Origin: Prorocentrum cordatum
Taxonomy: Eukaryota; Sar; Dinophyceae; Prorocentrales; Prorocentraceae
DNA: 64,000 bases
Direction: 5' to 3'
NCBI GenBank assembly: GCA_963575745.1
Contig: CAUYUJ010000666.1
Location: 32,172-96,171, forward strand
The notes below the pieces were generated by a model, which did not search any database, had not been told where the DNA came from, and saw only the letters and a list, made by a program, of their open reading frames with translations. The position numbers and the translations under genes were made by a program. Of the stretch, positions 9,570 to 49,831 are shown piece by piece (the first letter of the stretch is position 1; every line of letters begins with the position of its first letter).

Positions 9570-10150
9570 AGGAGCACGGCAGGCGGAAAAAAAGGAGCAC
9601 GGCAGACCACACAGGAGCACGGCAGACCCCACAAGAGCACGGCAGACCACAAAGGAGCACGGCAGACCAAAGAGACGACACAAGGAGCACAGCAGATCCC
9701 GCAGGAGCACGGCAGACACCACACGAGCACGGCAGATCCCAAATGAGCACGGCAGACCACAGAAGCACTGCAGACCACACAAGGGCACCGCAGACCTCAC
9801 AGGAGCACGGCAGACCCCACAGGAGCACGGCAGACCCCACAGGAGCACGGCAAACCACAAAGGAGCACGGCAGACCACAGGAGCACGGCAAACCACACAG
9901 GAGCACGGCAGACCACACAGGAGCACGGCAATCCCCACAGGAGCACGGCAGGCAGACCGCGCGCAGGTACAACATAAACGCGCCTTTTGTTGTACCCCGA
10001 ACGCCGCTGGCGTTTCCCCCACAGGAGCACGGCAGACCCCACAAGCTCGCGGGAAACCCCAAATGAGCACGGCAGACCACAGGAGCACGGCAGACCACAC
10101 AGGAGCACGGCAGACGCCACAGGAGCACGGCAGACCGCGCAGGAGCACGG
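9570..10150 (+). repeat. 20-bp satellite array with hairpin module
   Basis: Plus-orientation satellite, interrupted at 9967-10021 by the 54-bp double-hairpin module (see separate entries and findings). Ends directly against the 197-bp satellite. Confidence 0.92.
9967..10021 (+). repeat. 54-bp double-hairpin module inside the satellite
   Basis: Begins GTACAACATAAACGCGCC and runs to GGCGTTTCCCC. Two inverted repeats: GTACAACA...TGTTGTAC, and AACGCC-GCT-GGCGTT. It is always flanked by satellite units. Other copies: 12433-12486 (minus), 15425-15478, 43988-44042, 47123-47176, 48450-48503 and 49267-49320. Confidence 0.88.
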
Positions 10151-10990
10151 CCGGCGCCGGAAAATTGAATTCCGAGGCGGTGCCGAAAAAAGGCCACTCC
10201 AAGACATATTTTTCTTTCGAAAATATTGATTTTCTCCTCCCGGCGCCCTGGAACCCCTTCCGGGCCGATTCCGGCACCCGGGCCGGCGCTCGAGCCAAAC
10301 GCCCGGGCCGGCACCCGGGCCAGCGCCCGGGCCGGTTCCGGCGCCGGCCGGCGCCGGAAAATTGAATTCCGAGGCGGTGCCGAAGAAAGGCCACTCCAAG
10401 ACACATTTTTCTTTCGAAAATATTGATTTTCTGCTCCCGGCGCCCGGGAACCCCTTCCGGGCCGCTTCTGGCACCCGGGCCGGCGCTCGAGCCAAACGCC
10501 CGGGCCAGCACCCGGGCCAGCGCCCGGGCCGGTTCCGGCGCCGGCCGGCGCCGGAAAATTGAATTCCGAGGCGGTGCCGAAAAAAGGCCACTCCAAGACA
10601 TATTTTTCTTTCGAAAATATTGATTTTCTGCTCCCGGCGCCCGGGAACCCCTTCCGGGCCGCTTCCGGCACCCGGGCCGGCGCTCGAGCCGAACGCCTGG
10701 GCCAGCACCCGGGCCAGCGCCCGGGCCGGTTCCGGCGCCGGCCGGCGCCGGAAAATTGAATTCCGAGGCGGTGCGGAAAAAAGGCCACTCCAAGACATAT
10801 TTTTCTTTCGAAAATATTGATTTTCTGCTCCCGGCGCCCTGGAACCCCTTCCGGGCCGATTCCGGCACCCAGGCCGGCGCTCGAACCGAACGCCCGGGCC
10901 GGCACCTGGGCTGGCGGCCGAGCCGGATCCAGCGCTGGCGTCGGCTCTGGCCGTCGCCGGAAAAATTGAATTCCGAGGCCGCGCTAACAA
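10151..10990 (+). repeat. 197-bp GC-rich satellite, four units plus a partial
   Basis: Units start CCGGCGCCGGAAAATTGAAT at 10151, 10348, 10545 and 10742 (period exactly 197 bp); a diverged partial unit begins near 10939. Each unit combines an AT-rich middle (TTTTTCTTTCGAAAATATTG) with CCCGGGCC-rich flanks able to fold. Sister arrays are at 15633-16487 and 44198-44793. The 66-residue ORFs inside recur with the unit and are not evidence of genes. Confidence 0.95.
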
Positions 10991-14200: not shown

Positions 14201-15632
14201 GGCCATTTCGCTCGAGACATCCTCAAAAAATCGAGGTGTGGTCTGCCGTGCTCCTGTGTGGTCTGCCGTGCTCCTGTGGTCTGCCGTGCTCCCCACAGGA
14301 GCACGGCAGACCGCGCGTAGGAACCGAGAGGAGCACGGCAGACCAAGACGAGGAGCACGGCAGACCAGGCTTAGGAACCGAGAGGAGCACGGCAGACCAA
14401 GACGAGGAGCACGGCAGACCAGGCACCAAGAGCGCCCTCAAGACGACGGAAAGGATGACCAAGACGAGGAGCACGGCAGACCAAGACGAGGAGCACGGCA
14501 GACTATGCCCTAAGAGTGCCCTCAAGACGGCCGAACAACGGCAGACCCCATAGGAGCACGGCACCTGTGGTCTGCCGTGCTCCCCACAGGAGCACGGCAG
14601 ACCGCGCGTAGGAACCGAGAGGAGCACGGCAGACCAAGACGAGGAGCACGGCAGACCAGGCTTAGGAACCGAGAGGAGCACGGCAGACCAAGACGAGGAG
14701 CACGGCAGACCAGGCACCAAGAGCGCCCTCAAGACGACGGAAAGGATGACCAAGACGAGGAGCACGGCAGACCAAGACGAGGAGCACGGCAGACTATGCC
14801 CTAAGAGTGCCCTCAAGACGGCCGAACAACGGCAGACCCCATAGGAGCACGGCAGACCACAGAAGAGCACGGCAGACCAACAGGAGCACGGCAGACCACA
14901 CAAGAGCACGGCAGGCCACACAGGAGCACGGCAGACCACACAGGAGCACGGCAGACCACAAAGGAGCACGGCAGACCACACAAGAGCACGGCAGACCCCA
15001 CAAGAGCACGGCAGACCCCACAGGAGCACGGCAGACCCCACAGGAGCACGGCAGAGCAGACCCAAAAGGAGCACGGCAGACCACACAGGAGCAAGGCAAA
15101 CCACAGGAGCACGGCAGACCACACAGGAGCACGGCAGACCCCACAGTAGCAAGGCAGACCCCAAAGGAGCACGGCAGACCACCGGAGCACGGCAGACCAC
15201 ACAGGAGTACGGCAGACCCCACATGAGCACGGCAAATCCCAAATGAGCACGGCAGACCACAAGAGCACGGCAGACCACACAGGAGCACGGCAGACTCCAC
15301 AGGAGCACGGCAGACCACAAAGGAGCACGGCAGACCACACAGGAGCCCGGCAGACGCCACAGGAGCACGGCAGACGCCACAGGAGCACGGCGGAACCCAC
15401 AGGAGCACGGCAGACCGCGCGCGGGTACAACATAAACGCGCCTTTTTGTTGTACCCCGAACGCCGCTGGCGTTTCCCCAACAGGAGCACGGCAGATCTCA
15501 CAGGCGCGCGGCAGACCCCAAATGAGCACGGCCGACCACAGGAGCACGGCAGACCCCAAATGAGTACGGCAGACCCCAAAAGAGCACCGTAGACGCCTCA
15601 GGAGCACGGCTGACCACACAGGAGCACGGCAG
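14201..15632. repeat. 20-bp satellite block (composite plus regular)
   Basis: Composite AAGACGAGG-spaced block, itself tandemly duplicated here (14290-14555 and 14575-14840), then a regular plus-orientation array to 15632 with the hairpin module at 15425-15478. The order of unit variants matches 46200-47320 and the two halves 35770-36231 and 43462-44197 around the LINE. Confidence 0.92.
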
Positions 15633-16487
15633 CCTGGGCCGGTTCCGGCGCCGGCCGGCGCCGGAAAATTGAATTCCGAGGCGGTGCCGAAAAAAGGCCA
15701 CTCCAAGACATATTTTTCTTTCGAAAATATTGATTTTCTGCTCCCGGCGCCCGGGAACCCCTTCCGGGCCGCTTCTGGCACCCGGGCCGGCGCTCGAGCC
15801 AAACGCCCGGGCCAGCACCCGGGCCAGCGCCCGGGCCGGTTCCGGCGCCGGCCGGCGCCGGAAAATTGAATTCCGAGGCGGTGCCGAAAAAAGGCCACTC
15901 CAAGACATATTTTTCTTTCGAAAATATTGATTTTCTGCTCCCGGCGCCCGGGAACCCCTTCCGGGCCGCTTCTGGCACCCGGGCCGGCGCTCGAGCCAAA
16001 CGCCCGGGCCAGCACCCGGGCCAGCGCCCGGGCCGGTTCCGGCGCCGGCCGGCGCCGGAAAATTGAATTCCGAGGCGGTGCCGAAAAAAGGCCACTCCAA
16101 GACATATTTTTCTTTCGAAAATATTGATTTTCTGCTCCCGGCGCCCGGGAACCCCTTCCGGGCCGCTTCCGGCACCCGGGCCGGCGCTCGAGCCGAACGC
16201 CTGGGCCAGCACCCGGGCCAGCGCCCGGGCCGGTTCCGGCGCCGGCCGGCGCCGGAAAATTGAATTCCGAGGCGGTGCGGAAAAAAGGCCACTCCAAGAC
16301 ATATTTTTCTTTCGAAAATATTGATTTTCTGCTCCCGGCGCCCTGGAACCCCTTCCGGGCCGATTCCGGCACCCAGGCCGGCGCTCGAACCGAACGCCCG
16401 GGCCGGCACCTGGGCTGGCGGCCGAGCCGGATCCAGCGCTGGCGTCGGCTCTGGCCGTCGCCGGAAAAATTGAATTCCGAGGCCGCG
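15633..16487 (+). repeat. 197-bp GC-rich satellite, four units
   Basis: Units start at 15655, 15852, 16049 and 16246 with a diverged end; same 197-bp period and unit order as 10151-10990. Confidence 0.95.
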
Positions 16488-35769: not shown

Positions 35770-36231
35770 CAGGTGGTCTGCCGTGCTCCTGTGTGGAGCA
35801 CGGCAGACCATGGCCATTTCGCTCGAGACATCCTCAAAAAATCGAGGTGTGGTCTGCCGTGCTCCTGTGTGGTCTGCCGTGCTCCTGTGGTCTGCCGTGC
35901 TCCCCACAGGAGCACGGCAGACCGCGCGTAGGAACCGAGAGGAGCACGGCAGACCAAGACGAGGAGCACGGCAGACCAGGCTTAGGAACCGAGAGGAGCA
36001 CGGCAGACCAAGACGAGGAGCACGGCAGACCAGGCACCAAGAGCGCCCTCAAGACGACGGAAAGGATGACCAAGACGAGGAGCACGGCAGACCAAGACGA
36101 GGAGCACGGCAGACTATGCCCTAAGAGTGCCCTCAAGACGGCCGAACAACGGCAGACCCCATAGGAGCACGGCAGACCACAGAAGAGCACGGCAGACCAA
36201 CAGGAGCACGGCAGACCACACAAGAGCACGG
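35770..36231. repeat. 20-bp satellite block interrupted by the LINE
   Basis: Hairpin junction, composite AAGACGAGG block, then regular units that stop exactly at the LINE 5' end; continues after the LINE at 43462. Confidence 0.92.
36217..36231 (+). repeat. Target-site duplication, left copy (15 bp)
   Basis: CACACAAGAGCACGG directly 5' of the LINE. An identical copy is at 43462-43476 directly 3' of it. The bases next to each copy differ, so the duplication is 15 bp. Confidence 0.9.
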
Positions 36232-36253
36232 TCCGTAGCCATTTTGGCTCAAG
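36232..36253 (+). promoter_or_regulatory. Complete 22-nt dinoflagellate spliced leader (DinoSL)
   Basis: Starts TCCGTAGCCATTTTGG and ends CTCAAG, matching the published DinoSL consensus (first base D = T, A or G) at all 22 positions. It abuts the target-site duplication upstream. In RNA it is added by trans-splicing; here it is genomic because cDNA was integrated. ATG follows 3 nt downstream at 36257. Confidence 0.95.
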
Positions 36254-36256
36254 GCC

Positions 36257-39200
36257 ATGGCGCACCCGACGACCGCGAGTCCGTCGGGCGTTCTTGAGCG
36301 CGAGGGGCGCTCTGCCACGAACCAGAAGCTTCGCCTTCTTTGGTTTCCTTCGCGCCTGCAGGGCAGAGTGTTTCGGCCGAGCAGCGGCCAGTCCCTCTGG
36401 GTGCCGCCATGTCGGAGGTTGCCTCGGGGCTGGCGAGGCGGGCGTACTGGTTGTGTGCTAAGCGTGGCTGTAACGCTTGGAACTGGTGTGACAAGCGCTG
36501 GACGTGCAAGGAGTGCGGCACCAGTGCTCCCCCATGGACGAAGGAGTACCGCTCCGACAAGGCCCCCCCGCGGGTGGACGCAGACGGGTTCGTGCAGCAA
36601 CCCAGGGGAAGGGCTGCGCAGCGCGCGGCGAAGCGCTCGGCCTCCCAGCGGGCCCTCTCTGGGAGTACCGCGCCCAGCAGCGCCCCCAACAGCAGGGCAC
36701 GGCGAGCGCGACCTTGGGGAGAGGCCAAGACCCAGATCGAGGGGCTGCAGGCGCAGCTCGTGGCGGCCAGGGAGCGCGTCGACACGCTCCAGGGGGCCTC
36801 GGCGCTCGGGCTCTCGGCGGACTTCCAGCGTGAGGCGGAGAATGCCCTCCAGCAGGGCAAGGACCAGGTCGCCGCCCTGGAGCTGGCCGTCCAGGAGGCC
36901 CAGCGGACGGAGCGCCCCCCTCACTCGGTGCTCCACATCGAGGCCAACGCCATTCAGAAGGTCGAGCGCCAGCTGGCCACGGCACGCACCAAGAGGGAGA
37001 AGCTCCAGCTGCAGGCGTCCGAGCTGCGCGAACTCATCGCGGAGAAGCAGGAGCAGCTGTCCGCAGCCGAGTTGGGAGTGGATGAGGTCACGGGGCAGAT
37101 TGCCGAGCTGGAAGAGACCAGCGCCAAGGTCACGCAGCAGGCGATCCAGCGGGCCAACGCGGCTGTCGGAGGCGTTCCGAGCCCGCTTGGGGACGCAGTC
37201 CAGGGGTTGCTCACTCAAGTCGGCGCCCTGTCGGATCTCCTCAAGCAGCACGGAGCCGAGCTGCCCCCCAGGTTTTCCGAGATCGTCGGGATTCTCAACA
37301 CGCAGAAGGAGGCGGTCGCTGATGTGCTCAGGCCCAGCAGCAGCTCGGCCAGGAAGCGTTGGGGCGACTGCGTCGGAGACGACGGCTTCGCGACTGAGGA
37401 TGACGACATGCCGCTCGATATCGTGGCCTCTGGGGGGCCGGCGGCCGCCCCTCCCGCTGCCGCCACGCAGGCAGGGCCTACCGCGGCTGGGCCGCCAGCC
37501 TCGCGGGCCAGGCCAGCGGACGGGCCCTACGGCCCTGCTGCGGTCCGCGGCCAGCACGGGGCGACCCTGGGCGCGTGGCCTCAGGTGGAGCCGTGCCTCG
37601 CAAAGGCCCTCGCCGAGCAAGGGGCGGCCCTCTCGGACGGCGACCCCTTGGTGGCTGCGGCTGCTGTCGTTGCTCCTGCTGCTGGGTACGGGCCGCGCCG
37701 TGGGTGATGCGGGAGCGTTGGAGTGGTCAGCTTCCACCGTCGGCCTCGACGTCGAGGACAGCGGGGCGCCTCCCCCTCGGGACGTGCGCGGGCCCAGCTG
37801 CTGGGACAGGTGGAGGAGGCGCTGCGACGGCCGCTGGCGCGTCCGCGCCCCTCGCAGGCGGCGGGCGGCGCCGAGCACCCTTGCCCGAGGTAGCCAGCTG
37901 GCGCGGTCGGGAACACCGAGGTGGCCCCCCGACGGCCAGTCAGGGGCCGAGAGCGGTGGGATTCAGCCCCACGACGCCGCAGCTCTCGGCCCCGATGGTG
38001 ATGGGCAGGCGCACCCCCCGCTGGCAACCGGAGGGGCGGAGGGACGGCCACCTCCTCAGCGACGGCCACCTCCCGTGCTTGCGAGCGGCCCGCCGACGCC
38101 GATGAGGAGCGCTGGAGCGAGGGGCCAGGTCCCCCCTCCAGTCCTGGTGGGGGCGGAGGGTCCCGCGACCAGGGGCGCGGCGGGCCTTGCGTCGGGCGCT
38201 GGCGAGCGCGCCGCTCGCGAGGCAGCCGTCATCGGCAAGGCGCCGCTGGTTGACAGTGCAGGAGGCCAGCAGCTTCGATCTGGCCTCGTCATGTTCGGCT
38301 GCAATGGCAACGCTTGGAGCAGGAGCATTGAGGCCATTGAGGCCTTCTTCAAGGCGTACGACTACTGGCCCGACGTAGTGGCGCTGCAGGAGACGAGGCT
38401 CCCGCATGAGCGCCTGCCCAGTGCGGTGGCTCAGGCCCGAGGCCTGGGTTACGCGGCCTTCCTCCACGAGGCAGCGCTGACGGAGAAGCAGGGGCCCCAG
38501 GCGACCTCAGGCGGCGTGGCGATTCTGGTGCGAGACGGCTTGCAGGCCGACGAGTCTGCGTACCCGCTGCCCTCGGCCTTGCGGCACCGCCTCATCGGAG
38601 TGGAGGTCGCCGCCGCCTCTGGCCTGCGGTTCCTGGTGCTCGCTGGGTATTTTCAGCACTCTGTGGGCCCTCGAGGCACCAACCTGGACATGTTTTCGGC
38701 CATCTCGGAGGTGACGGGCTTCTCTGCCGACATCCCGTGGGTCCTCCAAGCCGACTTCAACATGGAGCCCGAGCCCCTGGAGGAGTTGGGGTGGCCCGCG
38801 GCGGTGCGGGGGCACGTCCTGGGGCCCTCGGAGGCGACGTGCCATGCCGAGGGCTGTGACCACCTCTACGACTGGTTCGTGGCTTCCGCGGCGTTGGCAG
38901 CCTGCACGGCCTCCTGCGCCACCACGCTCGAGGGCTTCGGTCTACACCCTCATCGCCCAGTCCTGCTTCGCCTCCAGGATGTTCGGGCAGATGCGTTGGT
39001 GGAGGTTCCGTCCAGGCCAGCACGCTTCCCCGAAGTTGCCCCTGAGCTCCTTCGGGCGCACGAGGACGCCGAGATTGTGTGCTACACGGTTGGCAAGAAG
39101 GGACAGGTCGCGCCCAGGGGCGTCTCGTGGTCCTGGGACGCAGGCACTCCACCGACCAGCCTCTCCGCCGCCTTCAGCGAGTGGGCGGCAGCTGCCGAAG

Positions 39201-42200
39201 GCACCCTGGTCGGCATCCACGGCATCGGCCAGGCAGACTTGGCCCGTCATCTCGGCAGAGGAGAGGGGCCTAGGCTGTCCCTCAAGCCTCTCAGTGCCCT
39301 GGTCAGGCGGGATGCCAGGTTCAGGTTCAGCCTCCTCACGCACCGCTTGAGGAGCTGCCTGGACGTGGCCCTCCAGCGGGTGCGCGCGGAGAGGACTGGC
39401 CGCTGGCACCCTCGGCATGCAGACTGGTACGGGCACCAGGCCGAGCTCAGGGCGCAGCTCTTGCTAGAGGCGGTGCAGGAGGCTGCCGACTCGGTCGGTG
39501 GGGCTCTCCCTGGCGCAGCTCCTGATCGACTAGGCGACCTGGTGTTTCAAGCGGGCGTCCACGGCAGCCCTGATGCTGTTCGGGATCTTCAAGGGCTGCT
39601 CAGTGTATCCCAGCGCCGCGACGCGGCTCAGAGCGCCCAGGCCTGGCGCAACTGGGCACAGACAGCGGTCGAGAAGGGCGGTCGTCTGGCCCACCGCTTC
39701 TCGAAGGCGACGGCCCCGCCGACGGTCAGGGGCGCTGGCTCGGGCAGGAGGCTGGTTGGGATGGCAGCGATTGGAGAGCTCACGAGTGTCTGGCAGAAGC
39801 TGTGGCTCCAAGAAGGGTTTGCCCTTGGCGCAGGGGCCAGCAGCTGGGACGTTGGCGAGTGGCGGCTGCCACCCATCTCGCTGGAGCAGCTCCAGGCAGC
39901 CTGCAAGCGCTACAGCCCCTCGGTGGGTCTCGGGTGCGACTCCCTGCGCCCTCGGCAGATCCTCCTGCTGCCCGTGGCGCTGCAGCAGCGCATCCTGGAC
40001 ATCCTATCGGCCTACGACGACGCCCCTGCATCGATCAACGGGCAGGTCTCCCTGATGGTGTTCATCCCGAAGGCAGATGGGGGGGTAAGGCCCATTGCGT
40101 TGCTGCCGCTGGTCCTGCGGCTGTGGTCGCGCCTCCGCCAGCCGTGCTGTGCCCGCTGGGAGGCTGACCACAACTTCCCTTTCTTCTGGGGACGTGACGG
40201 GCGGGACTGTGAGCGGGCTGGGTGGCTGCACAACTGTTTTGCGGGGTTCGCGAAGGCGAACCAGCAGTTCGAGGCCGCGAGCCTCTTCCTGGACATCAGC
40301 AAGTTCTACGAGCATGTGCGTCACGATGTTCTCTGGGCGAATGCTGTACGTTTCGGGTTCAACCTCAGGCTGTTGCGCGGCCTCCTCACCTCCTACCAGG
40401 CCCCTAGGATGCTCCTTGCGGCGGGCATGGCTTCCCCCGCCTTCGGCACTACTGGTACGGTGTTGGCTGGGTGTGCGTGTGCGACAGCAGTTGCGAAGCT
40501 CCCAGTCCTGGGAGCCCTCCTGGCCGCGGGGGCGACGTGCCCGTTGGTCACGCCGAGGAATGTGGTCGACGACATCTCGCTCCAGGCGGTCGGCACGGCC
40601 CGACTCGTGAAGCAGCAGATGTTGGCCTCCAGCTGTGCAGTGGTCCGCCAGCTGCGTGAGCAGCACCTCCCACTCAACGAGAGTAAGTCGGTCTTCCTGG
40701 CCTCGTCGCCGCAGCTCGCCAAGGAGCTCTCCGAGGAGTGGGCTGCGCAGGGCTTGGCCTTCAAGAGGGGACTACAGGCGAGGAACCTCGGCACCGACGC
40801 CAACATCACTCGTCGTGGAGTGCATGAAGGTGCTGTGCGTGCGGTCGGCGGCCTTCGGCGAGGACGCAGGCTAGGGGTGCTTCGCTCAGCTGGTGCGGCG
40901 ACCGAGATGGTCCACCGCGCTGGGCCCACCGCGGCGATGCTGTGGGGGCGTACTGTGACGGGTGTACCTGATAGGGAGCTTCATTCGTGGCGCTTGGCGG
41001 CTGTGCGATCGGCTGGGAAGTTCCCTAAGGGCGCCTCACTCGGGCTGAGACTCAGAGCGGTGGAGGTCATGCGGTCCATCGACCTCGACCCGAGCCCCGC
41101 GCTGCTTCGTGCCGCAGTGCAGATGGCGGCCAGCCTCCTTCAGTCGGGGGAGGTCCCGCAGCGCATGTTCGAGACGGCCTTGCAGGAGGCGGGGCGGAGG
41201 CACGCGGGAGCAGCAGCCCCTTGGGCGCACTGCCGTACGCCTGTGGATGCCTTGGCCCTCTCGCTCACCAGGGTGGGCCGGAGGCTCGTCCAAGGCACCC
41301 GCCTCGCCACCGACGACGGCCACATCCTGGACCTGCGCATGATGGGGCCGCGCGAGCTGGGCCTGCTGGCAGCGGCAGGGGCGCGGCGTGCTTCGGACAG
41401 GTCGGAGCTGGCCCGCCTCGGCCACGGTGCGCTCCCCCCGTCGCCCCTGTTCTGGGAGGCCTTCTCGGAGGTCCTTGGGCCTGGCAGCAAGCTCAGCCCC
41501 AGGGAGAAGGCGGCGGTGGTGAGTTTCCTTTCCAACGCCCACTGGCCCCAGACCCGTCTGCACTCGGCGGGGGAGAGGGAGCACGCTCGCTGCTGCGCTT
41601 GCGATGCCTCCCGCGGCAGCCCCTGGCACAGGCTGTTCGAGTGTCCAGTCCTCGCGGGGCCGAGGCGCGACTCTACCTCCGACCGCCTACGGGGCTGCGC
41701 ACACCGTGCACGTGGCCGCGGTGAAGAGGCGGGGGAATGCTTCGCGCGCTGCTGGCTTCCGCAGCCCCCGAGGGCCGCCTCGAGGTCGGATGCCATGGCG
41801 GTCAGGTGGTGCAATCGCCCAGCTGACGGTCTCCTCGGGGGGCGCCTCTACTTGGATGGGTCGGCGCTCGACCCCGGGCACGAGAGCCTACGGCGTGCGG
41901 GTTGGAGCATCGTGCAGTGCGACTCCGACGGCAACATGGAGTGCGCGGTGTACGGCAGCGTGCGCCAAGACCTCTGCCCTTTCCAGACGGCGAAGGACGG
42001 CGAGGATTTCGCGGTCTGGATGCTTTCTCGCTTCCTGGGCCCGAGTGTGGGCGAGATCCTCATCGATTGTGCGTCTACGGTCAGCTGCCTCACGTTGGGC
42101 AAGAGGTACGCGACGGCAGCCAACAAGCCCAATGCCCATCTCTGGGAGGGGATCTACGCTTCGCTGGACGTGGACATGCTCAAGGTTACCAAAGTGGCGG

Positions 42201-43147
42201 CCCACTGCACCGCCAGAGACGTGATGGATGGCAAGATCACGGAGTCGGACCTTCGCGGCAACGGTCATGCAGACCGCTGGGCCAAGGCAGGTGCGGAGCT
42301 GCACCGCGCCAGCCCCGTGGCCAGGCGCGAGTTCTTCGGCACGATGGAGGTGGTGAGGGAGCTCTCATGCTGGGTGGCGCAAGCCTCCCTCATCTGGCAG
42401 GGGATCGAGGTCAAGGACTGCGAGGGCCTACCCGAGGGCAGCGAGCGGACGGCTGTCTCCTTCGCCGTGCCCGTGGTGGAGCCCGCCAGCAGCCGCCCGT
42501 CCGACTCGGGTTCGGGCGACGGGTGGGCGTCGGCGGCGCGCGCTGGTGGCGTATCCCTCGGTGCGACGGCCTTCGTCGTCGCTGGCCACGTCCTGGCCTT
42601 CGCCAGGTGCGGGGAGGGCGCCGCCGAGCAGGAGCTGATGGCGTGCACCCGCTGCGGGGCGTGCGCGCGGCTGGGCGGACGCTCAGGCGCGGCGCCCAAG
42701 CTCAAGGAGCAATGCCCAGGGTCTTCTGGGCTTCCCAAGGGCAGGCGAGACCAGAAGGCGCGCTGGCTGCAGGGGCGGCATCCTGCTGGCACGCCCCACA
42801 GCGGCAGCAAGCGGGTCGGCGCGACAGTGCCCAGCCTGCGCAAGGAGGACGTGGTGCCGATGGACGCCAGGGTGCGCTTCCTGCAGTGGCTGGGGGTCCG
42901 CCCCGAGGATGCCCCTGGCGGCGAGGCCGCCGGCGCCAGCAGCGGGCCCCCCAGCGGCGCGGTGGCCGCTGGCGAGGAGGCGGCAGAGCCGCTGGCGCCT
43001 GGCCCCGCGGGGGCCTCGAGGGAGGCATGGCTGAGCGCCTACGGACTTGACGAGGCGAGCCTCCTCCAGTGGTCAGCCGCGGCTGAGACGGCGCGCGAGG
43101 ACAGGCGCAAGAGGCGCCGCCGTGCTGATGATGACGAGGGGGAGTGA
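36257..43147 (+). CDS. LINE ORF2: endonuclease, reverse transcriptase, RNase H
   Basis: Open frame of 2,296 codons from the first ATG after the spliced leader. Its first ~480 codons lie in another frame over ORF1 and read as Arg/Ser/Pro-rich, probably untranslated, so functional ORF2 may begin later (ATG at 38102 or 38291). Domains, numbered from 36257: APE-type endonuclease at about 679-940 (NGN near 682, QETR near 711, ADFNMEP near 834, final PHRPVL); reverse transcriptase at about 1220-1520 (FIPKADGGVRPIALLP, FLDISKFYEHV near 1344, GTVLAGCACA, NVVDDIS near 1435, i.e. VVDD for YADD); a C-x-C...H...C knuckle near 1779; RNase H near 1866-2020 (YLDGSALD, E, IDCAST, GNGHADRWAKAG); and a C-terminal Cys/His cluster near 2110. 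All key acidic residues seem present, so it may be active. Confidence 0.88.
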   Translation: MAHPTTASPSGVLEREGRSATNQKLRLLWFPSRLQGRVFRPSSGQSLWVPPCRRLPRGWRGGRTGCVLSVAVTLGTGVTSAGRARSAAPVLPHGRRSTAPTRPPRGWTQTGSCSNPGEGLRSARRSARPPSGPSLGVPRPAAPPTAGHGERDLGERPRPRSRGCRRSSWRPGSASTRSRGPRRSGSRRTSSVRRRMPSSRARTRSPPWSWPSRRPSGRSAPLTRCSTSRPTPFRRSSASWPRHAPRGRSSSCRRPSCANSSRRSRSSCPQPSWEWMRSRGRLPSWKRPAPRSRSRRSSGPTRLSEAFRARLGTQSRGCSLKSAPCRISSSSTEPSCPPGFPRSSGFSTRRRRRSLMCSGPAAARPGSVGATASETTASRLRMTTCRSISWPLGGRRPPLPLPPRRQGLPRLGRQPRGPGQRTGPTALLRSAASTGRPWARGLRWSRASQRPSPSKGRPSRTATPWWLRLLSLLLLLGTGRAVGDAGALEWSASTVGLDVEDSGAPPPRDVRGPSCWDRWRRRCDGRWRVRAPRRRRAAPSTLARGSQLARSGTPRWPPDGQSGAESGGIQPHDAAALGPDGDGQAHPPLATGGAEGRPPPQRRPPPVLASGPPTPMRSAGARGQVPPPVLVGAEGPATRGAAGLASGAGERAAREAAVIGKAPLVDSAGGQQLRSGLVMFGCNGNAWSRSIEAIEAFFKAYDYWPDVVALQETRLPHERLPSAVAQARGLGYAAFLHEAALTEKQGPQATSGGVAILVRDGLQADESAYPLPSALRHRLIGVEVAAASGLRFLVLAGYFQHSVGPRGTNLDMFSAISEVTGFSADIPWVLQADFNMEPEPLEELGWPAAVRGHVLGPSEATCHAEGCDHLYDWFVASAALAACTASCATTLEGFGLHPHRPVLLRLQDVRADALVEVPSRPARFPEVAPELLRAHEDAEIVCYTVGKKGQVAPRGVSWSWDAGTPPTSLSAAFSEWAAAAEGTLVGIHGIGQADLARHLGRGEGPRLSLKPLSALVRRDARFRFSLLTHRLRSCLDVALQRVRAERTGRWHPRHADWYGHQAELRAQLLLEAVQEAADSVGGALPGAAPDRLGDLVFQAGVHGSPDAVRDLQGLLSVSQRRDAAQSAQAWRNWAQTAVEKGGRLAHRFSKATAPPTVRGAGSGRRLVGMAAIGELTSVWQKLWLQEGFALGAGASSWDVGEWRLPPISLEQLQAACKRYSPSVGLGCDSLRPRQILLLPVALQQRILDILSAYDDAPASINGQVSLMVFIPKADGGVRPIALLPLVLRLWSRLRQPCCARWEADHNFPFFWGRDGRDCERAGWLHNCFAGFAKANQQFEAASLFLDISKFYEHVRHDVLWANAVRFGFNLRLLRGLLTSYQAPRMLLAAGMASPAFGTTGTVLAGCACATAVAKLPVLGALLAAGATCPLVTPRNVVDDISLQAVGTARLVKQQMLASSCAVVRQLREQHLPLNESKSVFLASSPQLAKELSEEWAAQGLAFKRGLQARNLGTDANITRRGVHEGAVRAVGGLRRGRRLGVLRSAGAATEMVHRAGPTAAMLWGRTVTGVPDRELHSWRLAAVRSAGKFPKGASLGLRLRAVEVMRSIDLDPSPALLRAAVQMAASLLQSGEVPQRMFETALQEAGRRHAGAAAPWAHCRTPVDALALSLTRVGRRLVQGTRLATDDGHILDLRMMGPRELGLLAAAGARRASDRSELARLGHGALPPSPLFWEAFSEVLGPGSKLSPREKAAVVSFLSNAHWPQTRLHSAGEREHARCCACDASRGSPWHRLFECPVLAGPRRDSTSDRLRGCAHRARGRGEEAGECFARCWLPQPPRAASRSDAMAVRWCNRPADGLLGGRLYLDGSALDPGHESLRRAGWSIVQCDSDGNMECAVYGSVRQDLCPFQTAKDGEDFAVWMLSRFLGPSVGEILIDCASTVSCLTLGKRYATAANKPNAHLWEGIYASLDVDMLKVTKVAAHCTARDVMDGKITESDLRGNGHADRWAKAGAELHRASPVARREFFGTMEVVRELSCWVAQASLIWQGIEVKDCEGLPEGSERTAVSFAVPVVEPASSRPSDSGSGDGWASAARAGGVSLGATAFVVAGHVLAFARCGEGAAEQELMACTRCGACARLGGRSGAAPKLKEQCPGSSGLPKGRRDQKARWLQGRHPAGTPHSGSKRVGATVPSLRKEDVVPMDARVRFLQWLGVRPEDAPGGEAAGASSGPPSGAVAAGEEAAEPLAPGPAGASREAWLSAYGLDEASLLQWSAAAETAREDRRKRRRRADDDEGE
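36409..37707 (+). CDS. LINE ORF1 protein: zinc ribbon plus coiled coil
   Basis: 432 residues from the ATG at 36409 in a good context (GTGCCGCCATGTCGG) to TGA at 37705. The N-terminus carries CAKRGCNAWNWCDKRWTCKECG, a Cys-rich finger similar in spacing to RanBP2-type or zinc-ribbon modules. A long helical coiled-coil region follows at about residues 105-250 (LQAQLVAARERVDTLQ ... ELRELIAEKQEQLSAAELG). The C-terminus is Ala/Pro-rich. In LINEs ORF1 binds the RNA and forms the RNP; that role is inferred from position and architecture. The frame is +1 relative to ORF2's, which is also open across the whole of ORF1. Confidence 0.72.
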   Translation: MSEVASGLARRAYWLCAKRGCNAWNWCDKRWTCKECGTSAPPWTKEYRSDKAPPRVDADGFVQQPRGRAAQRAAKRSASQRALSGSTAPSSAPNSRARRARPWGEAKTQIEGLQAQLVAARERVDTLQGASALGLSADFQREAENALQQGKDQVAALELAVQEAQRTERPPHSVLHIEANAIQKVERQLATARTKREKLQLQASELRELIAEKQEQLSAAELGVDEVTGQIAELEETSAKVTQQAIQRANAAVGGVPSPLGDAVQGLLTQVGALSDLLKQHGAELPPRFSEIVGILNTQKEAVADVLRPSSSSARKRWGDCVGDDGFATEDDDMPLDIVASGGPAAAPPAAATQAGPTAAGPPASRARPADGPYGPAAVRGQHGATLGAWPQVEPCLAKALAEQGAALSDGDPLVAAAAVVAPAAGYGPRRG

Positions 43148-43461
43148 TGCAGCATCATCTTCTTCCTCCTGTTGTGTCCGCCCCCCTCGTCTTCTTTTTT
43201 TCTGTGAGTGCGTGAGGCAGCAACTTCTGCCCCGCGCCTCCTTTGCAGCGAGGAGGGCTTGTTGGGCGTGCTTGCGCGCCTCGGCCCCTGCTGCCTTCTT
43301 GATTTCTTTGAAATCGTGCGCTTCGCGCGTCTGGCGCTTCGCGCCCTCCCCTGCGGTGGCTCCTTAGGGGCCCCTAGGGTTGGCCCTTGAGGCCCTGGGG
43401 CCAACGGGCTCCGCGGGCCTCGGGCTCCTTTTAGCCTTCACAGGCCCCGCAGCTCACAGCT
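43148..43461 (+). other. LINE 3' UTR
   Basis: No ORF. Contains a T-rich stretch, a TTCGCGC-rich segment, and a stem at 43380-43404 (TTGGCCC ... GGGCCAA) about 55 nt before the end. Such 3' structures can be recognised by LINE reverse transcriptases; that role is inference. No polyadenylation-like tail. Confidence 0.6.
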
Positions 43462-44197
43462 CACACAAGAGCACGGCAGGCCACACAGGAGCACGGCAGA
43501 CCACACAGGAGCACGGCAGACCACAAAGGAGCACGGCAGACCACACAAGAGCACGGCAGACCCCACAAGAGCACGGCAGACCCCACAGGAGCACGGCAGA
43601 CCCCACAGGAGCACGGCAGAGCAGACCCAAAAGGAGCACGGCAGACCACACAGGAGCAAGGCAAACCACAGGAGCACGGCAGACCACACAGGAGCACGGC
43701 AGACCCCACAGTAGCAAGGCAGACCCCAAAGGAGCACGGCAGACCACCGGAGCACGGCAGACCACACAGGAGTACGGCAGACCCCACATGAGCACGGCAA
43801 ATCCCAAATGAGCACGGCAGACCACAAGAGCACGGCAGACCACACAGGAGCACGGCAGACTCCACAGGAGCACGGCAGACCACAAAGGAGCACGGCAGAC
43901 CACACAGGAGCCCGGCAGACGCCACAGGAGCACGGCAGACGCCACAGGAGCACGGCGGAACCCACAGGAGCACGGCAGACCGCGCGCGGGTACAACATAA
44001 ACGCGCCTTTTTGTTGTACCCCGAACGCCGCTGGCGTTTCCCCAACAGGAGCACGGCAGATCTCACAGGCGCGCGGCAGACCCCAAATGAGCACGGCCGA
44101 CCACAGGAGCACGGCAGACCCCAAATGAGTACGGCAGACCCCAAAAGAGCACCGTAGACGCCTCAGGAGCACGGCTGACCACACAGGAGCACGGCAG
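43462..44197 (+). repeat. 20-bp satellite array, continuation after the LINE
   Basis: First 15 bp are the right target-site duplication. Order of units then equals 14912-15632, including the hairpin module at 43988-44042 and the GAGCACCGTAGACGCCTCAGG unit. Confidence 0.93.
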
Positions 44198-44793
44198 CCT
44201 GGGCCGGTTCCGGCGCCGGCCGGCGCCGGAAAATTGAATTCCGAGGCGGTGCCGAAAAAAGGCCACTCCAAGACATATTTTTCTTTCGAAAATATTGATT
44301 TTCTGCTCCCGGCGCCCGGGAACCCCTTCCGGGCCGCTTCTGGCACCCGGGCCGGCGCTCGAGCCAAACGCCCGGGCCAGCACCCGGGCCAGCGCCCGGG
44401 CCGGTTCCGGCGCCGGCCGGCGCCGGAAAATTGAATTCCGAGGCGGTGCCGAAAAAAGGCCACTCCAAGACATATTTTTCTTTCGAAAATATTGATTTTC
44501 TGCTCCCGGCGCCCGGGAACCCCTTCCGGGCCGCTTCCGGCACCCGGGCCGGCGCTCGAGCCGAACGCCTGGGCCAGCACCCGGGCCAGCGCCCGGGCCG
44601 GTTCCGGCGCCGGCCGGCGCCGGAAAATTGAATTCCGAGGCGGTGCGGAAAAAAGGCCACTCCAAGACATATTTTTCTTTCGAAAATATTGATTTTCTGC
44701 TCCCGGCGCCCTGGAACCCCTTCCGGGCCGATTCCGGCACCCAGGCCGGCGCTCGAACCGAACGCCCGGGCCGGCACCTGGGCTGGCGGCCGA
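44198..44793 (+). repeat. 197-bp GC-rich satellite, three units
   Basis: Units start at 44220, 44417 and 44614. It lacks one internal unit compared with 15633-16487, as unequal exchange would produce. Confidence 0.94.
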
Positions 44794-46202: not shown

Positions 46203-47689
46203 CAGGTGGTCTGCCGTGCTCCTGTGTGGAGCACGGCAGACCACGGCCATTTCGCTCGAGACATCCTCAAAAAATCGAGGTGTGGTCTGCCGTGCTCCTG
46301 TGTGGTCTGCCGTGCTCCTGTGGTCTGCCGTGCTCCCCACAGGAGCACGGCAGACCAGGCTTAGGAACCGAGAGGAGCACGGCAGACCAAGACGAGGAGC
46401 ACGGCAGACCAGGCACCAAGAGCGCCCTCAAGACGACGGAAAGGATGACCAAGACGAGGAGCACGGCAGACCAAGACGAGGAGCACGGCAGACTATGCCC
46501 TAAGAGTGCCCTCAAGACGGCCGAACAACGGCAGACCACAGAAGAGCACGGCAGACCACAGAAGAGCACGGCAGACCAACAGGAGCACGGCTGACCACAC
46601 AAGAGCACGGCAGGCCACACAGGAGCACGGCAGACCACACAGGAGCACGGCAGACCACAAAGGAGCACGGCAGACCACACAAGAGCACGGCAGACCCCAC
46701 AAGAGCACGGCAGACCCCACAGGAGCACGGCAGACCCCACAGGAGCACGGCAGAGCAGACCCAAAAGGAGCACGGCAGACCACACAGGAGCAAGGCAAAC
46801 CACAGGAGCACGGCAGACCACACAGGAGCACGGCAGACCCCACAGTAGCAAGGCAGACCCCAAAGGAGCACGGCAGACCACCGGAGCACGGCAGACCACA
46901 CAGGAGTACGGCAGACCCCACATGAGCACGGCAAATCCAAATGAGCACGGCAGACCCAAGAGCACGGCAGACCACACAGGAGCACGGCAGACTCCACAGG
47001 AGCACGGCAGACCACAAAGGAGCACGGCAGACCACACAGGAGCCCGGCAGACGCCACAGGAGCACGGCAGACGCCACAGGAGCACGGCGGAACCCACAGG
47101 AGCACGGCAGACCGCGCGCGGGTACAACATAAACGCGCCTTTTTGTTGTACCCCGAACGCCGCTGGCGTTTCCCCAACAGGAGCACGGCAGATCTCACAG
47201 GCGCGCGGCAGACCCCAAATGAGCACGGCCGACCACAGGAGCACGGCAGACCCCAAATGAGTACGGCAGACCCCAAAAGAGCACCGTAGACGCCTCAGGA
47301 GCACGGCTGACCACACAGGAGCACGGCAGACCACACAGGAGCGCGGCAAACCACAAAGGAGCAAGGCAGACCCCAAATGAGCACGGCAGTCCACACGTTC
47401 GCACGGCAGACCGCACAGGAGCACGGCAGACCCCACATGAGCACGGCAGACCAAGAAGGAGCACGGCAGACCACACAGGAGCACGGCAGACCACACAGGA
47501 GCACGGCAGACCACACAGGACACGGCAGACCCCACGGGAGCACGGCAGACCACACAGGAGCACGGCAAACCACACAAGAGCACGGCAGACCATACAGGAG
47601 CACGCCAGACCACACAGGAGCACGGCAGACCACACGTTCGCACGGCAAACTCCACAGGAGCACGGCAGACCCCAAAGAAGCACGGCAGT
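46203..47689. repeat. 20-bp satellite block (composite plus regular)
   Basis: Hairpin junction at 46205-46243, composite block to 46530, regular array after it, hairpin module at 47123-47176. It joins directly to the 11239-type array at 47325, without the 197-bp satellite seen at the homologous place in the 15633 and 44198 blocks. Confidence 0.93.
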
Positions 47690-48195: not shown

Positions 48196-49831
48196 GCACG
48201 GCAGACACCACACGAGCACGGCAGATCCCAAATGAGCACGGCAGACACAGAAGCACTGCAGACCACACAAGAGCACCGCAGACCTCACAGGAGCACGGCA
48301 GACCCCACAGGAGCACGGCAGACCCCACAGGAGCACGGCAAACCACAAAGGAGCACGGCAGACCACAGAAGCACGGCAAACCACACAGGAGCACGGCAGA
48401 CCACACAGGAGCACGGCAATCCCCACAGGAGCACGGCAGACCGCGCACAGGTACAACATAAACGCGCCTTTTCTTGTACCCCGAACGCCGCTGGCGTTTC
48501 CCCCACAGGAGCACGGCAGACCCCACAAGCTGGCGGGAAACCCCAAATGAGCACGGCAGACCACAGGAGCACGGCAGACCACACAGGAGCACGGCAGACG
48601 CCACAGGAGCACGGCAGACCGCGCAGGAGCACGGCAGACCACACATGAGCACGGCAGACCCCACAGGAGCACGGCAGACCCCATAGGAGCACGGCAGACC
48701 ACAGAAGAGCACGGCAGACCAACAGGAGCACGGCAGACCACACAAGAGCACGGCAGGCCACACAGGAGCACGGCAGACCACACAGGAGCACGGCAGACCA
48801 CAAAGGAGCACGGCAGACCACACAAGAGCACGGCAGACCCCACAAGAGCACGGCAGACCCCACAGGAGCACGGCAGACCCCACAGGAGCACGGCAGAGCA
48901 GACCCAAAAGGAGCACGGCAGACCACACAGGAGCAAGGCAAACCACAGGAGCACGGCAGACCACACAGGAGCACGGCAGACCCCACAGTAGCAAGGCAGA
49001 CCCCAAAGGAGCACGGCAGACCACCGGAGCACGGCAGACCACACAGGAGTACGGCAGACCCCACATGAGCACGGCAAATCCCAAATGAGCACGGCAGACC
49101 ACAAGAGCACGGCAGACCACACAGGAGCACGGCAGACTCCACAGGAGCACGGCAGACCACAAAGGAGCACGGCAGACCACACAGGAGCCCGGCAGACGCC
49201 ACAGGAGCACGGCAGACGCCACAGGAGCACGGCGGAACCCACAGGAGCACGGCAGACCGCGCGCGGGTACAACATAAACGCGCCTTTTTGTTGTACCCCG
49301 AACGCCGCTGGCGTTTCCCCAACAGGAGCACGGCAGATCTCACAGGCGCGCGGCAGACCCCAAATGAGCACGGCCGACCACAGGAGCACGGCAGACCCCA
49401 AATGAGTACGGCAGACCCCAAAAGAGCACCGTAGACGCCTCAGGAGCACGGCTGACCACACAGGAGCACGGCAGACCACACAGGAGCGCGGCAAACCACA
49501 AAGGAGCAAGGCAGACCCCAAATGAGCACGGCAGTCCACACGTTCGCACGGAAGACCGCACAGGAGCACGGCAGACACCACATGAGCACGGCAGACCAAG
49601 AAGGAGCACGGCAGACCACACAGGAGCACGGCAGACCACACAGGAGCACGGCAGACCACACAGGACACGGCAGACCCCACGGGAGCACGGCAGACCACAC
49701 AGGAGCACGGCAAACCACACAAGAGCACGGCAGACCATACAGGAGCACGCCAGACCACACAGGAGCACGGCAGACCACACGTTCGCACGGCAAACTCCAC
49801 AGGAGCACGGCAGACCCCAAAGGAGCACGGC
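48196..49831 (+). repeat. 20-bp satellite array, longest plus-orientation stretch
   Basis: About 80 units with two hairpin modules (48450-48503 and 49267-49320). The first half resembles 9700-10150; the second half resembles 14860-15630 and then 11239-11620, so it is a fusion of two block types. Confidence 0.93.

Follow-up and report, generated by a model that had tools for sequence, protein, structure and literature searches.

A target-specific LINE whose 5' end is the dinoflagellate spliced leader

R1, TRAS and SART are target-specific LINEs with two ORFs and an AP-endonuclease, and they insert at a fixed base of a tandem repeat. SLACS and CZAR are site-specific LINEs that insert into SL RNA genes. 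Human L1, which mobilises other RNAs and has a coiled coil in ORF1, shows little target specificity and ends in a long poly(A) tail. In dinoflagellates, Slamovits and Keeling (2008) reportedly described DinoSL retrogenes and mRNA recycling. In the accessible sections of the later literature, a DNA-encoded DinoSL is the 5' mark of a reintegrated trans-spliced mRNA, and stacked DinoSL relics follow the AG at base 7 (PMC3229502, PMC6050394, PMC12014239). The available part of one review states that dinoflagellates return spliced mRNAs to the genome at large scale, and that the retroelement behind this recycling is unknown, LTR elements being thought likelier (PMC6050394). The trypanosomatid element L1Tc has its own promoter and a ribozyme and gives unspliced transcripts, according to partial texts (PMC8190864, PMC4035085).

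Here we analysed a window of 64,000 nucleotides, the whole stretch of DNA presented above; all features are on the + strand. It contains a 7,230-bp LINE (36232-43461) headed by an exact DinoSL. The leader is complete with 22 nt (36232-36253): the exact 21-mer lies at 36233-36253 and is preceded by a T at 36232 (D = T). This was the sole match in the window with at most 3 mismatches, and 100 shuffles gave 0. In the 4.13-Gb genome, probably that of Prorocentrum cordatum, the 21-mer was matched 24,192 times (at most 1 mismatch; backwards control 0). Genomic DinoSL is therefore common here, and the telling point is that it sits precisely at the border of the element. A 3' UTR and tail (43148-43461) close the element, and a 26-bp piece of them is present at 151 places. 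The tail is short and of the CAGCT/CACA type, with no poly(A).

The element is flanked by identical 15-bp target-site duplications (TSDs), CACACAAGAGCACGG, at 36217-36231 and 43462-43476. The site lies in a tandem satellite (repeat analysis of the flanks placed arrays at 35847-36231 and, with a 20-bp unit, at 43462-44197), so the TSD at 36217 could be a mere repeat coincidence. The element flanks were joined, one TSD copy was removed, and the resulting 120 bp were searched within the window. Three empty target sites were found, at 14852-14971, 46551-46670 and 48694-48813 (0, 1 and 0 mismatches over 120 bp). The exact empty sites and the TSD variants on both sides ruled out a chance of satellite register. 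The first-pass annotation had described a LINE that begins at base 1 of DinoSL, with a 15-bp TSD and both borders visible, and all of this was confirmed.

The element 5' motif occurs at 114 places in the genome. As at the border of a retroposed DinoSL mRNA, the complete leader was present at 85/86 of the five-prime ends read, at the same position as here; 77 were exact from base 2, 4 had one change and 4 were stacked, so that the single or stacked leaders expected in other copies were indeed seen. The single end without leader (L064) starts at the first body base. Since the copies read nearly always start with the leader, the element is suggested to travel as a finished, capped mRNA. Sequence shared upstream of the element, which had been named as the observation to speak against this reading, was seen in many copies, but its cause is that the insertion target is the same. 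The sequence upstream of two copies (L017, L035) comes from the 3' end of a further copy.

Our results showed that 73 of the 85 leader-bearing copies lie no more than 3 bases downstream of [CT]ACGG in the 20-bp satellite. CCACACA stood directly before this motif in 65/73 of these copies versus 109/592 window [CT]ACGG sites (Fisher p 1e-33, with copies that are not all independent events). The other 12 leader-bearing places lay elsewhere, 10 not at [CT]ACGG and 2 one base short. The element thus inserts repeatedly and independently at one precise target base, and is R1/TRAS/SART-like in behaviour. The earlier reading is supported on the mature RNA and the borders; it missed the specificity for one satellite sequence.

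TSDs of 11-17 bp, as expected of a LINE, were found in 16/17 copies with both ends read, in addition to the empty sites. Two loci (L043, L054) have TSD sequences found at no other place read. An extra G precedes the leader, where the 3' flank reads C, in 5/17 copies with both ends read, and one copy (L040) has an extra C rather than a G. The same satellite monomer carries junctions both with and without the extra G. Untemplated 5' guanosines of human L1 and SVA are interpreted as cap copies in the accessible part of PMC4859970. With DinoSL at 85/86 ends and a G that does not come from the target, the claim that a mature, trans-spliced RNA was integrated and had been copied as far as its 5' end is most likely correct. 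A 5'-truncated copy without leader lies inside satellite at L056 (near 4558), and for 42/100 of the 3' ends listed no 5' end or partner is on record in the vicinity, which indicates that not every insertion reaches the leader.

The leader could also have been captured once, with an internal promoter starting a capped RNA from the first base of the genomic leader and no new trans-splicing; we regard this as unlikely, although it is the strongest of the alternatives. The 5' conservation would fit it. In an alignment of the 30 best-scoring copies, only 1/38 columns was variable in the block directly after the leader (36254-36291), and 4/60 columns were variable in 36232-36291 versus 31/77 in 36332-36408. 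Trypanosomatid L1Tc-type elements have a conserved 77-nt 5' promoter, according to the sections available (PMC8190864, PMC4748587), and stacked leaders are few (4/86) despite many rounds. However, stacked leaders occur at more than one target place, which needs new trans-splicing; the leader has been re-acquired in at least some lineages. The first-pass annotation had proposed that the element cannot be transcribed unless it gains an SL anew or lies in a read-through unit; in view of the near-invariant first 60 bases this is one possibility. Furthermore, unrelated bodies at the same target are also headed by a complete DinoSL. These are L054, whose body is unrelated to the LINE, and the L013 family (complete DinoSL in 4/4 checked of 9 near-complete copies). 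An Rfam search of 36100-43700 gave no match at E <= 1, including no HDV-like ribozyme of the kind that marks the 5' end of L1Tc/Pr77-type elements; a promoter itself would not show there. The predicted folds of the 3' end (z -1.61), of the L054 3' end (z -1.35) and of the 5' UTR (z -1.20) were not clearly better than shuffles.

ORF1 (36409-37707, 432 aa) has an N-terminal Cys motif, seen by eye, and a coiled-coil-like middle. ORF2 (37708-43147) lies in the +1 frame relative to ORF1. Its frame is open from stop to stop across 36239-43147, and its codon pattern starts near 37.73 kb. The ORFs had been called intact; both reading frames are open, but ORF2 lacks an ordinary start because no ATG occurs from the ORF1 stop until 38102. 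ORF2 is probably reached through a +1 frameshift. As in other LINEs, endonuclease and reverse transcriptase share one ORF. The AP-type endonuclease domain PF03372 (38300-38638) scored above its cut-off (E 1.2e-7, 32.1 versus 24.5 bits), and the reverse transcriptase PF00078 (40064-40699) scored below its own (E 7.9e-5, 22.9 versus 29.6 bits), with a weak match of the region to GsI-IIC RT (E 0.0062). RNase H-like motifs (41849-42290) were seen by eye only; the region had no match in Pfam or PDB, and its predicted fold was not usable (pLDDT 38). In 6 copy pairs dN/dS was 0.14-0.20 for ORF1 and 0.16-0.26 for ORF2, and the wrong-frame control gave 2.1-3.4. Both ORFs are under constraint along the copy lineage.

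These coding data bear on the idea that the locus is a passive, non-autonomous retrocopy, in which another enzyme inserted the SL-bearing mRNA of an RT-like gene. DinoSL retrogenes are common in dinoflagellates, as the consulted portions of PMC6050394 and PMC12014239 state. We nevertheless consider it very improbable, given the shared frame of endonuclease and reverse transcriptase, the constraint on both ORFs, the 5' motif at 114 places, most of those read being at one satellite target, and shortened LINE derivatives that keep the same ends. Cis-splicing was considered as a source of the internal deletions that the derivatives have in common; the junction 2375/2476 resembles GT-AG and the others do not. 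Other leader-headed sequences use the same satellite target, and the LINE's 3' end was found on 16/40 of them. A search of a phage collection gave no match, as expected.

If segmental duplication had multiplied satellite blocks around a single old insertion, the copies would not be separate insertions. The upstream 60 bp is common to many copies, and some locus pairs look like duplicates (L056/L097; C1780 and C14496, with equal spacing). Target-class changes were counted on a 45-copy element tree and compared with shuffled labels (200 shuffles). All target classes together clustered slightly (21 changes versus 24.7 shuffled; as low in 6/200 shuffles), but class A (17 rows) was as scattered as shuffled labels, with 14 changes against a shuffled mean of 14.0. 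In class B the flanks were closer than the elements (mean similarity 0.983 versus 0.935), and in its 14 most discordant pairs the flanks were 97-100% alike and the elements 88-94%. In class C the flanks were closer than the elements in only 8/15 pairs. The element tree barely follows the target, and the satellite target has been hit independently many times. Together with the junctions with and without extra G at the same monomer and the empty sites in the window, this leaves duplication a shade less probable than the passive retrocopy as the main copy source, although some duplicates exist. Satellite arrays are hard to assemble, but misassembly or a fortuitous repeat match as the source of the borders is hardly credible with the leader at the junction in 85/86 places on many contigs, TSD variants unique to single places and exact empty sites.

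We therefore favour an autonomous, target-specific LINE that is likely to transpose through a capped mRNA to which DinoSL has already been trans-spliced. The endonuclease would nick the bottom strand of the 20-bp satellite at GAC|CACACA, and element RNA with CACA-like 3' repeats would be primed at the nick (target-primed reverse transcription, TPRT). Reverse copying would proceed through the body to the end of the leader and in some cases reach the cap, which may give the extra G, and a second cut 15 bp away would produce the TSD. The inserted leader would usually be replaced by trans-splicing in the next cycle: read-through RNA may be trans-spliced at the old leader's terminal AG, leaving one clean leader, or less often at an AG inside it, leaving a stacked leader and the relic CCATTTTGGCTCAAG. 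Tentatively, and at slightly less than even chances, the life cycle may run obligatorily through host trans-splicing, with the leader bringing its own acceptor, the 5' end renewed in each generation and other SL-headed RNAs mobilised.

If so, every copy, equipped with a splice acceptor in the leader it inserted, would act as a mobile trans-splicing unit, and such LINEs with different repeat targets, e.g. (TCC)n, would drive the mRNA recycling of dinoflagellates, for which an agent has long been sought. The element is a concrete, testable candidate for that role and combines target, TSD, a possible cap-G and the SL at a single junction. How it persists with no evident promoter is a further question; carrying a host splice acceptor may be the answer. 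Searches of an open-access library, in which most subscription papers are absent, turned up no published account of a LINE headed by DinoSL.

Among the known systems, DinoSL retrogenes share with this LINE the DNA-encoded DinoSL at the 5' end and the stacked relics, as far as the available parts of their descriptions go. The cargo here is instead an autonomous LINE with a known target and TSD, and a single clean leader, rather than accumulated relics, heads most of the copies read. R1, TRAS and SART share two ORFs, an AP-type endonuclease, insertion at one fixed base within a tandem repeat, nesting in head-to-tail order and a short repeated tail with no long poly(A). The likeness is one of behaviour; this LINE targets an unnamed 20-bp satellite and its 5' end is the host spliced leader. 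Like human L1, it appears to mobilise other RNAs and has a coiled coil (here coiled-coil-like) in ORF1, but it is target-specific with a short tail, whereas L1 is hardly selective and ends in long poly(A). An untemplated 5' G occurs in full-length copies of both (PMC4859970, accessible part). Trypanosomatid L1Tc/ingi elements with Pr77 also live in a trans-splicing host and have a short conserved 5' hallmark; this LINE ends in the host leader, with no ribozyme found by Rfam, in contrast to L1Tc as presented in the sources at hand. Finally, SLACS and CZAR are, like this LINE, site-specific and linked with spliced leaders, but they insert into SL RNA genes, whereas the leader here belongs to the inserted RNA.

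The LINE at window positions 36232-43461 (7,230 bp) begins with an exact match to DinoSL, the 22-nt dinoflagellate spliced leader (SL), at 36232-36253, as the first-pass annotation had proposed. Identical copies of the target-site duplication (TSD) CACACAAGAGCACGG lie at 36217-36231 and 43462-43476 and place the element end at 43461. Because the insertion site is a 20-bp satellite, the TSD needed a stronger test than flank identity. One TSD copy was removed, the flanks were joined, and 120 bp were compared with the rest of the window (GC content 59.7%). Empty target sites were found at 14852 and 48694 (0 mismatches each) and at 46551 (1 mismatch), and homology around the site at 14852 extended further, with 98% identity over 1.7 kb to 14561-16227. 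This result showed that the insertion is real and clean, and that the 15-bp TSD is the element border, as had been claimed. Arrays of a 197-bp tandem repeat adjoin the 20-bp satellite arrays at 10148-10939, 15632-16443 and 44197-44783, and the two kinds of array jointly make up a larger repeated unit.

Inspection by eye shows a Cys motif at the start of the ORF1 protein (432 aa, 36409-37707), which also has a coiled-coil-like stretch. No stop interrupts the ORF2 frame before 43147. This frame matches an AP-type endonuclease with a score that passes the cut-off (PF03372) and a reverse transcriptase with one that stays under the bit cut-off (PF00078, E 7.9e-5). RNase H-like motifs were seen by eye only, and no family or structure match for them was found in Pfam or PDB. 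In comparison with eight other full-length loci, third positions carry most substitutions; the frame that shows this is that of ORF1 as far as about 37.7 kb and that of ORF2 beyond. In six pairs of copies, dN/dS was 0.14-0.20 for ORF1 and 0.16-0.26 for ORF2, versus 2.1-3.4 when the ORF1 stretch was read in the ORF2 frame as a control. With dS between copies of up to 0.40, these low ratios indicate lines of descent in which both proteins were required. The ORF2 frame is open throughout in six of nine full-length loci (window copy counted) and broken in L045, L055 and L057. The earlier description of the ORFs as intact holds for the two open frames but not for an ORF2 start, since the ORF2 frame has no ATG from the ORF1 stop to 38102. 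This suggests that ORF2 may be translated through +1 frameshifting where ORF1 ends. Within 37700-38102, the ORF1 stop TGA overlaps a third-frame ATG (TGATG), and coding goes on in the +1 frame without an ATG.

The genome (4,128,499,153 bases in 21,875 contigs, with the window at C666:32172-96171) was searched for other copies. A 29-base 5' motif beginning 9 bases past the leader (at most 2 mismatches) matched 114 places, of which 100 were listed; this search is blind to 5'-truncated copies. With a 529-base query, 40 copies were scored among 1,037 candidates, and their alignments started at base 1 in 36, base 2 in three and base 6 in one. In all, 86 five-prime ends were read, 84 from the 100 listed motif places and two from the 529-base search. 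A single DinoSL, exact over bases 2-22, was found at 77 ends, and a single DinoSL with one substitution at four. Another four are stacked, a full DinoSL being followed by CCATTTTGGCTCAAG, the relic of an older leader; two of these (L056 and L097) look like duplicates of one another, and L059 and L063 lie at other sites. The body of the leaderless copy L064 starts at the leader/body boundary, with the first post-leader base. The question raised by the annotation, whether other copies also begin at DinoSL, single or stacked, is thus answered positively for 85 of 86 ends.

TSDs of 11-17 bp were present in 16 of the 17 loci with both ends examined, L049 having none; the L056 match is shifted by one monomer, and its length may be inflated by chance. 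The TSD sequences of L043 (CAGCATGCCAGACC) and L054 (CACACAACAGCACGG) are unique among the places read. In five of the 17 (L039, L045, L046, L053 and L054), a G stands between the TSD and the leader T. A C follows the 3' TSD copy, so the extra G is not target-derived. L040 has C in place of G, nine junctions have T alone, and L055 has neither. Over 73 target junctions, the first bases were T alone in 35 and GT in 27. Untemplated guanosines in human L1 and SVA are taken as cap copies in one study (PMC4859970). In place of poly(A), CAGCT-, CACA- or CGACA-type repeats form the 3' ends and lead into the TSD.

Genome-wide, 24,192 SL sites have at most one mismatch. CCTCCTCCT followed by 0-3 bases and an exact SL gave 1,492 reverse-strand matches and 2,336 forward-strand matches, the latter with visible double counting. 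Estimated from the reverse strand, about one in eight genomic DinoSL sites lies directly behind (TCC)n (for example at L002, L005, L007 and L008). This hints at a second SL-headed retrocopy class with the microsatellite (TCC)n as target, though a pyrimidine tract upstream of the SL could arise from other causes.

Diverged lineages (dS to 0.40) mostly carry one clean leader. According to PMC3229502, a relic arises when the old leader is spliced at the AG that follows its base 7, and relics occur in 22-25% of full-SL ESTs. If this were the rule here, relics would accumulate, but the diverged lineages mostly lack them. The leader-terminal AG would instead be used in most cycles and reset the leader, and the four stacked copies show the alternative splice choice. 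In the 30 best-scoring copies of the 529-base search, only 3 columns vary in the 22 leader bases and 1 in the next 38, compared with 31 of 77 at 36332-36408. Some feature of this first-60-base block is under selection. An internal promoter, described for trypanosomatid L1Tc elements (PMC8190864, PMC4748587), is a possible reason for the near-invariant leader and following 38 bases; as an account of the leader-bearing 5' ends, it is less likely than transposition of a trans-spliced mRNA. No ribozyme was found in the element by an Rfam search of 36100-43700.

Among the 85 places with a leader, 73 are at most 3 bases past the satellite motif [CT]ACGG, and a further two are one base short. CCACACA stands immediately upstream in 65 of these 73, versus 109 of 592 [CT]ACGG sites in the window (Fisher p 1e-33, with copies partly related and not all independent). 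Of the ten places off this target, L022, L031, L036/L043 and L085 use a different register (..CAGACC), L059, L078 and L092 adjoin a T run, and L084, L086 and L094 have other surroundings.

Target place was set against the element tree for 45 copies, in which the long branch of L051_m2202, a 527-bp truncated copy, is meaningless. Duplication of same-site copies predicts that target classes (groups by target place) are clades. Class A (17 rows) required 14 changes versus 14.0 for shuffled labels, and class B 8 versus 9.3. For all classes jointly the number was 21 versus 24.7, and 6 of 200 shuffles gave so low a count, which indicates slight clustering. Similarity over the 300 upstream bases exceeded that of the elements in 43 of 45 class B pairs (means 0.983 and 0.935), in 95 of 136 class A pairs and in 8 of 15 class C pairs, where the means are reversed (flanks 0.930, elements 0.937). 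From tree and flanks together, we conclude that the same satellite monomers were struck repeatedly. That same-site copies are mostly duplications instead, as the slight joint clustering and the L056/L097 pair would favor, is very improbable given that class A is scattered as shuffled labels are and that class B flanks are closer than their elements.

Other sequences share the target. An exact DinoSL at most 3 bases after GCACGG occurs at 114 places genome-wide, equal to the 5'-motif count by coincidence; among 100 listed, 60 are LINE 5' ends and 40 are not. In 16 of these 40 a LINE 3' end follows 1.4-1.9 kb downstream on the same strand, versus one in each control (opposite strand; upstream). 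These 16, known from end positions only, appear to be short non-autonomous partners. L013:2470-3529 belongs to another SL-headed family that uses this satellite target, with eight further near-complete copies that each start at the first post-leader base. Four of the nine are at GCACGG-DinoSL places, and the L013 copy carries a 127-bp T-rich insert missing from its eight relatives. At L054:5070-7140, the target holds a third SL-headed element; its 529-aa ORF matched no Pfam family, its 3' end is (CA)n and its TSD is CACACAGGAGTACGG.

Nine internally shortened LINE copies without RT were found at eight loci (L039, L040, L041, L050, L053, L054, L056 and L058), with two deletion patterns and a common ~490-bp sequence not present in the window copy. 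L040 and L041 hold one and the same shortened element; among the seven different copies translated, six keep a 1,117-1,408-aa frame, and that of L039 is split. A shortened copy inside L056 (near 4558) is also 5'-truncated and starts at element base 445, directly behind satellite GGAGCACGGC. LINE 3' ends occur at 151 places; among 100 listed, a LINE 5' end lies within 7.9 kb of 42, a partner accompanies 16, and the other 42 have neither among the listed places, so further 5'-truncated copies likely exist.

In conclusion, the element is a real target-specific LINE that most likely moves as a trans-spliced, capped mRNA. In its mode of working, it resembles target-specific LINEs combined with DinoSL mRNA recycling.
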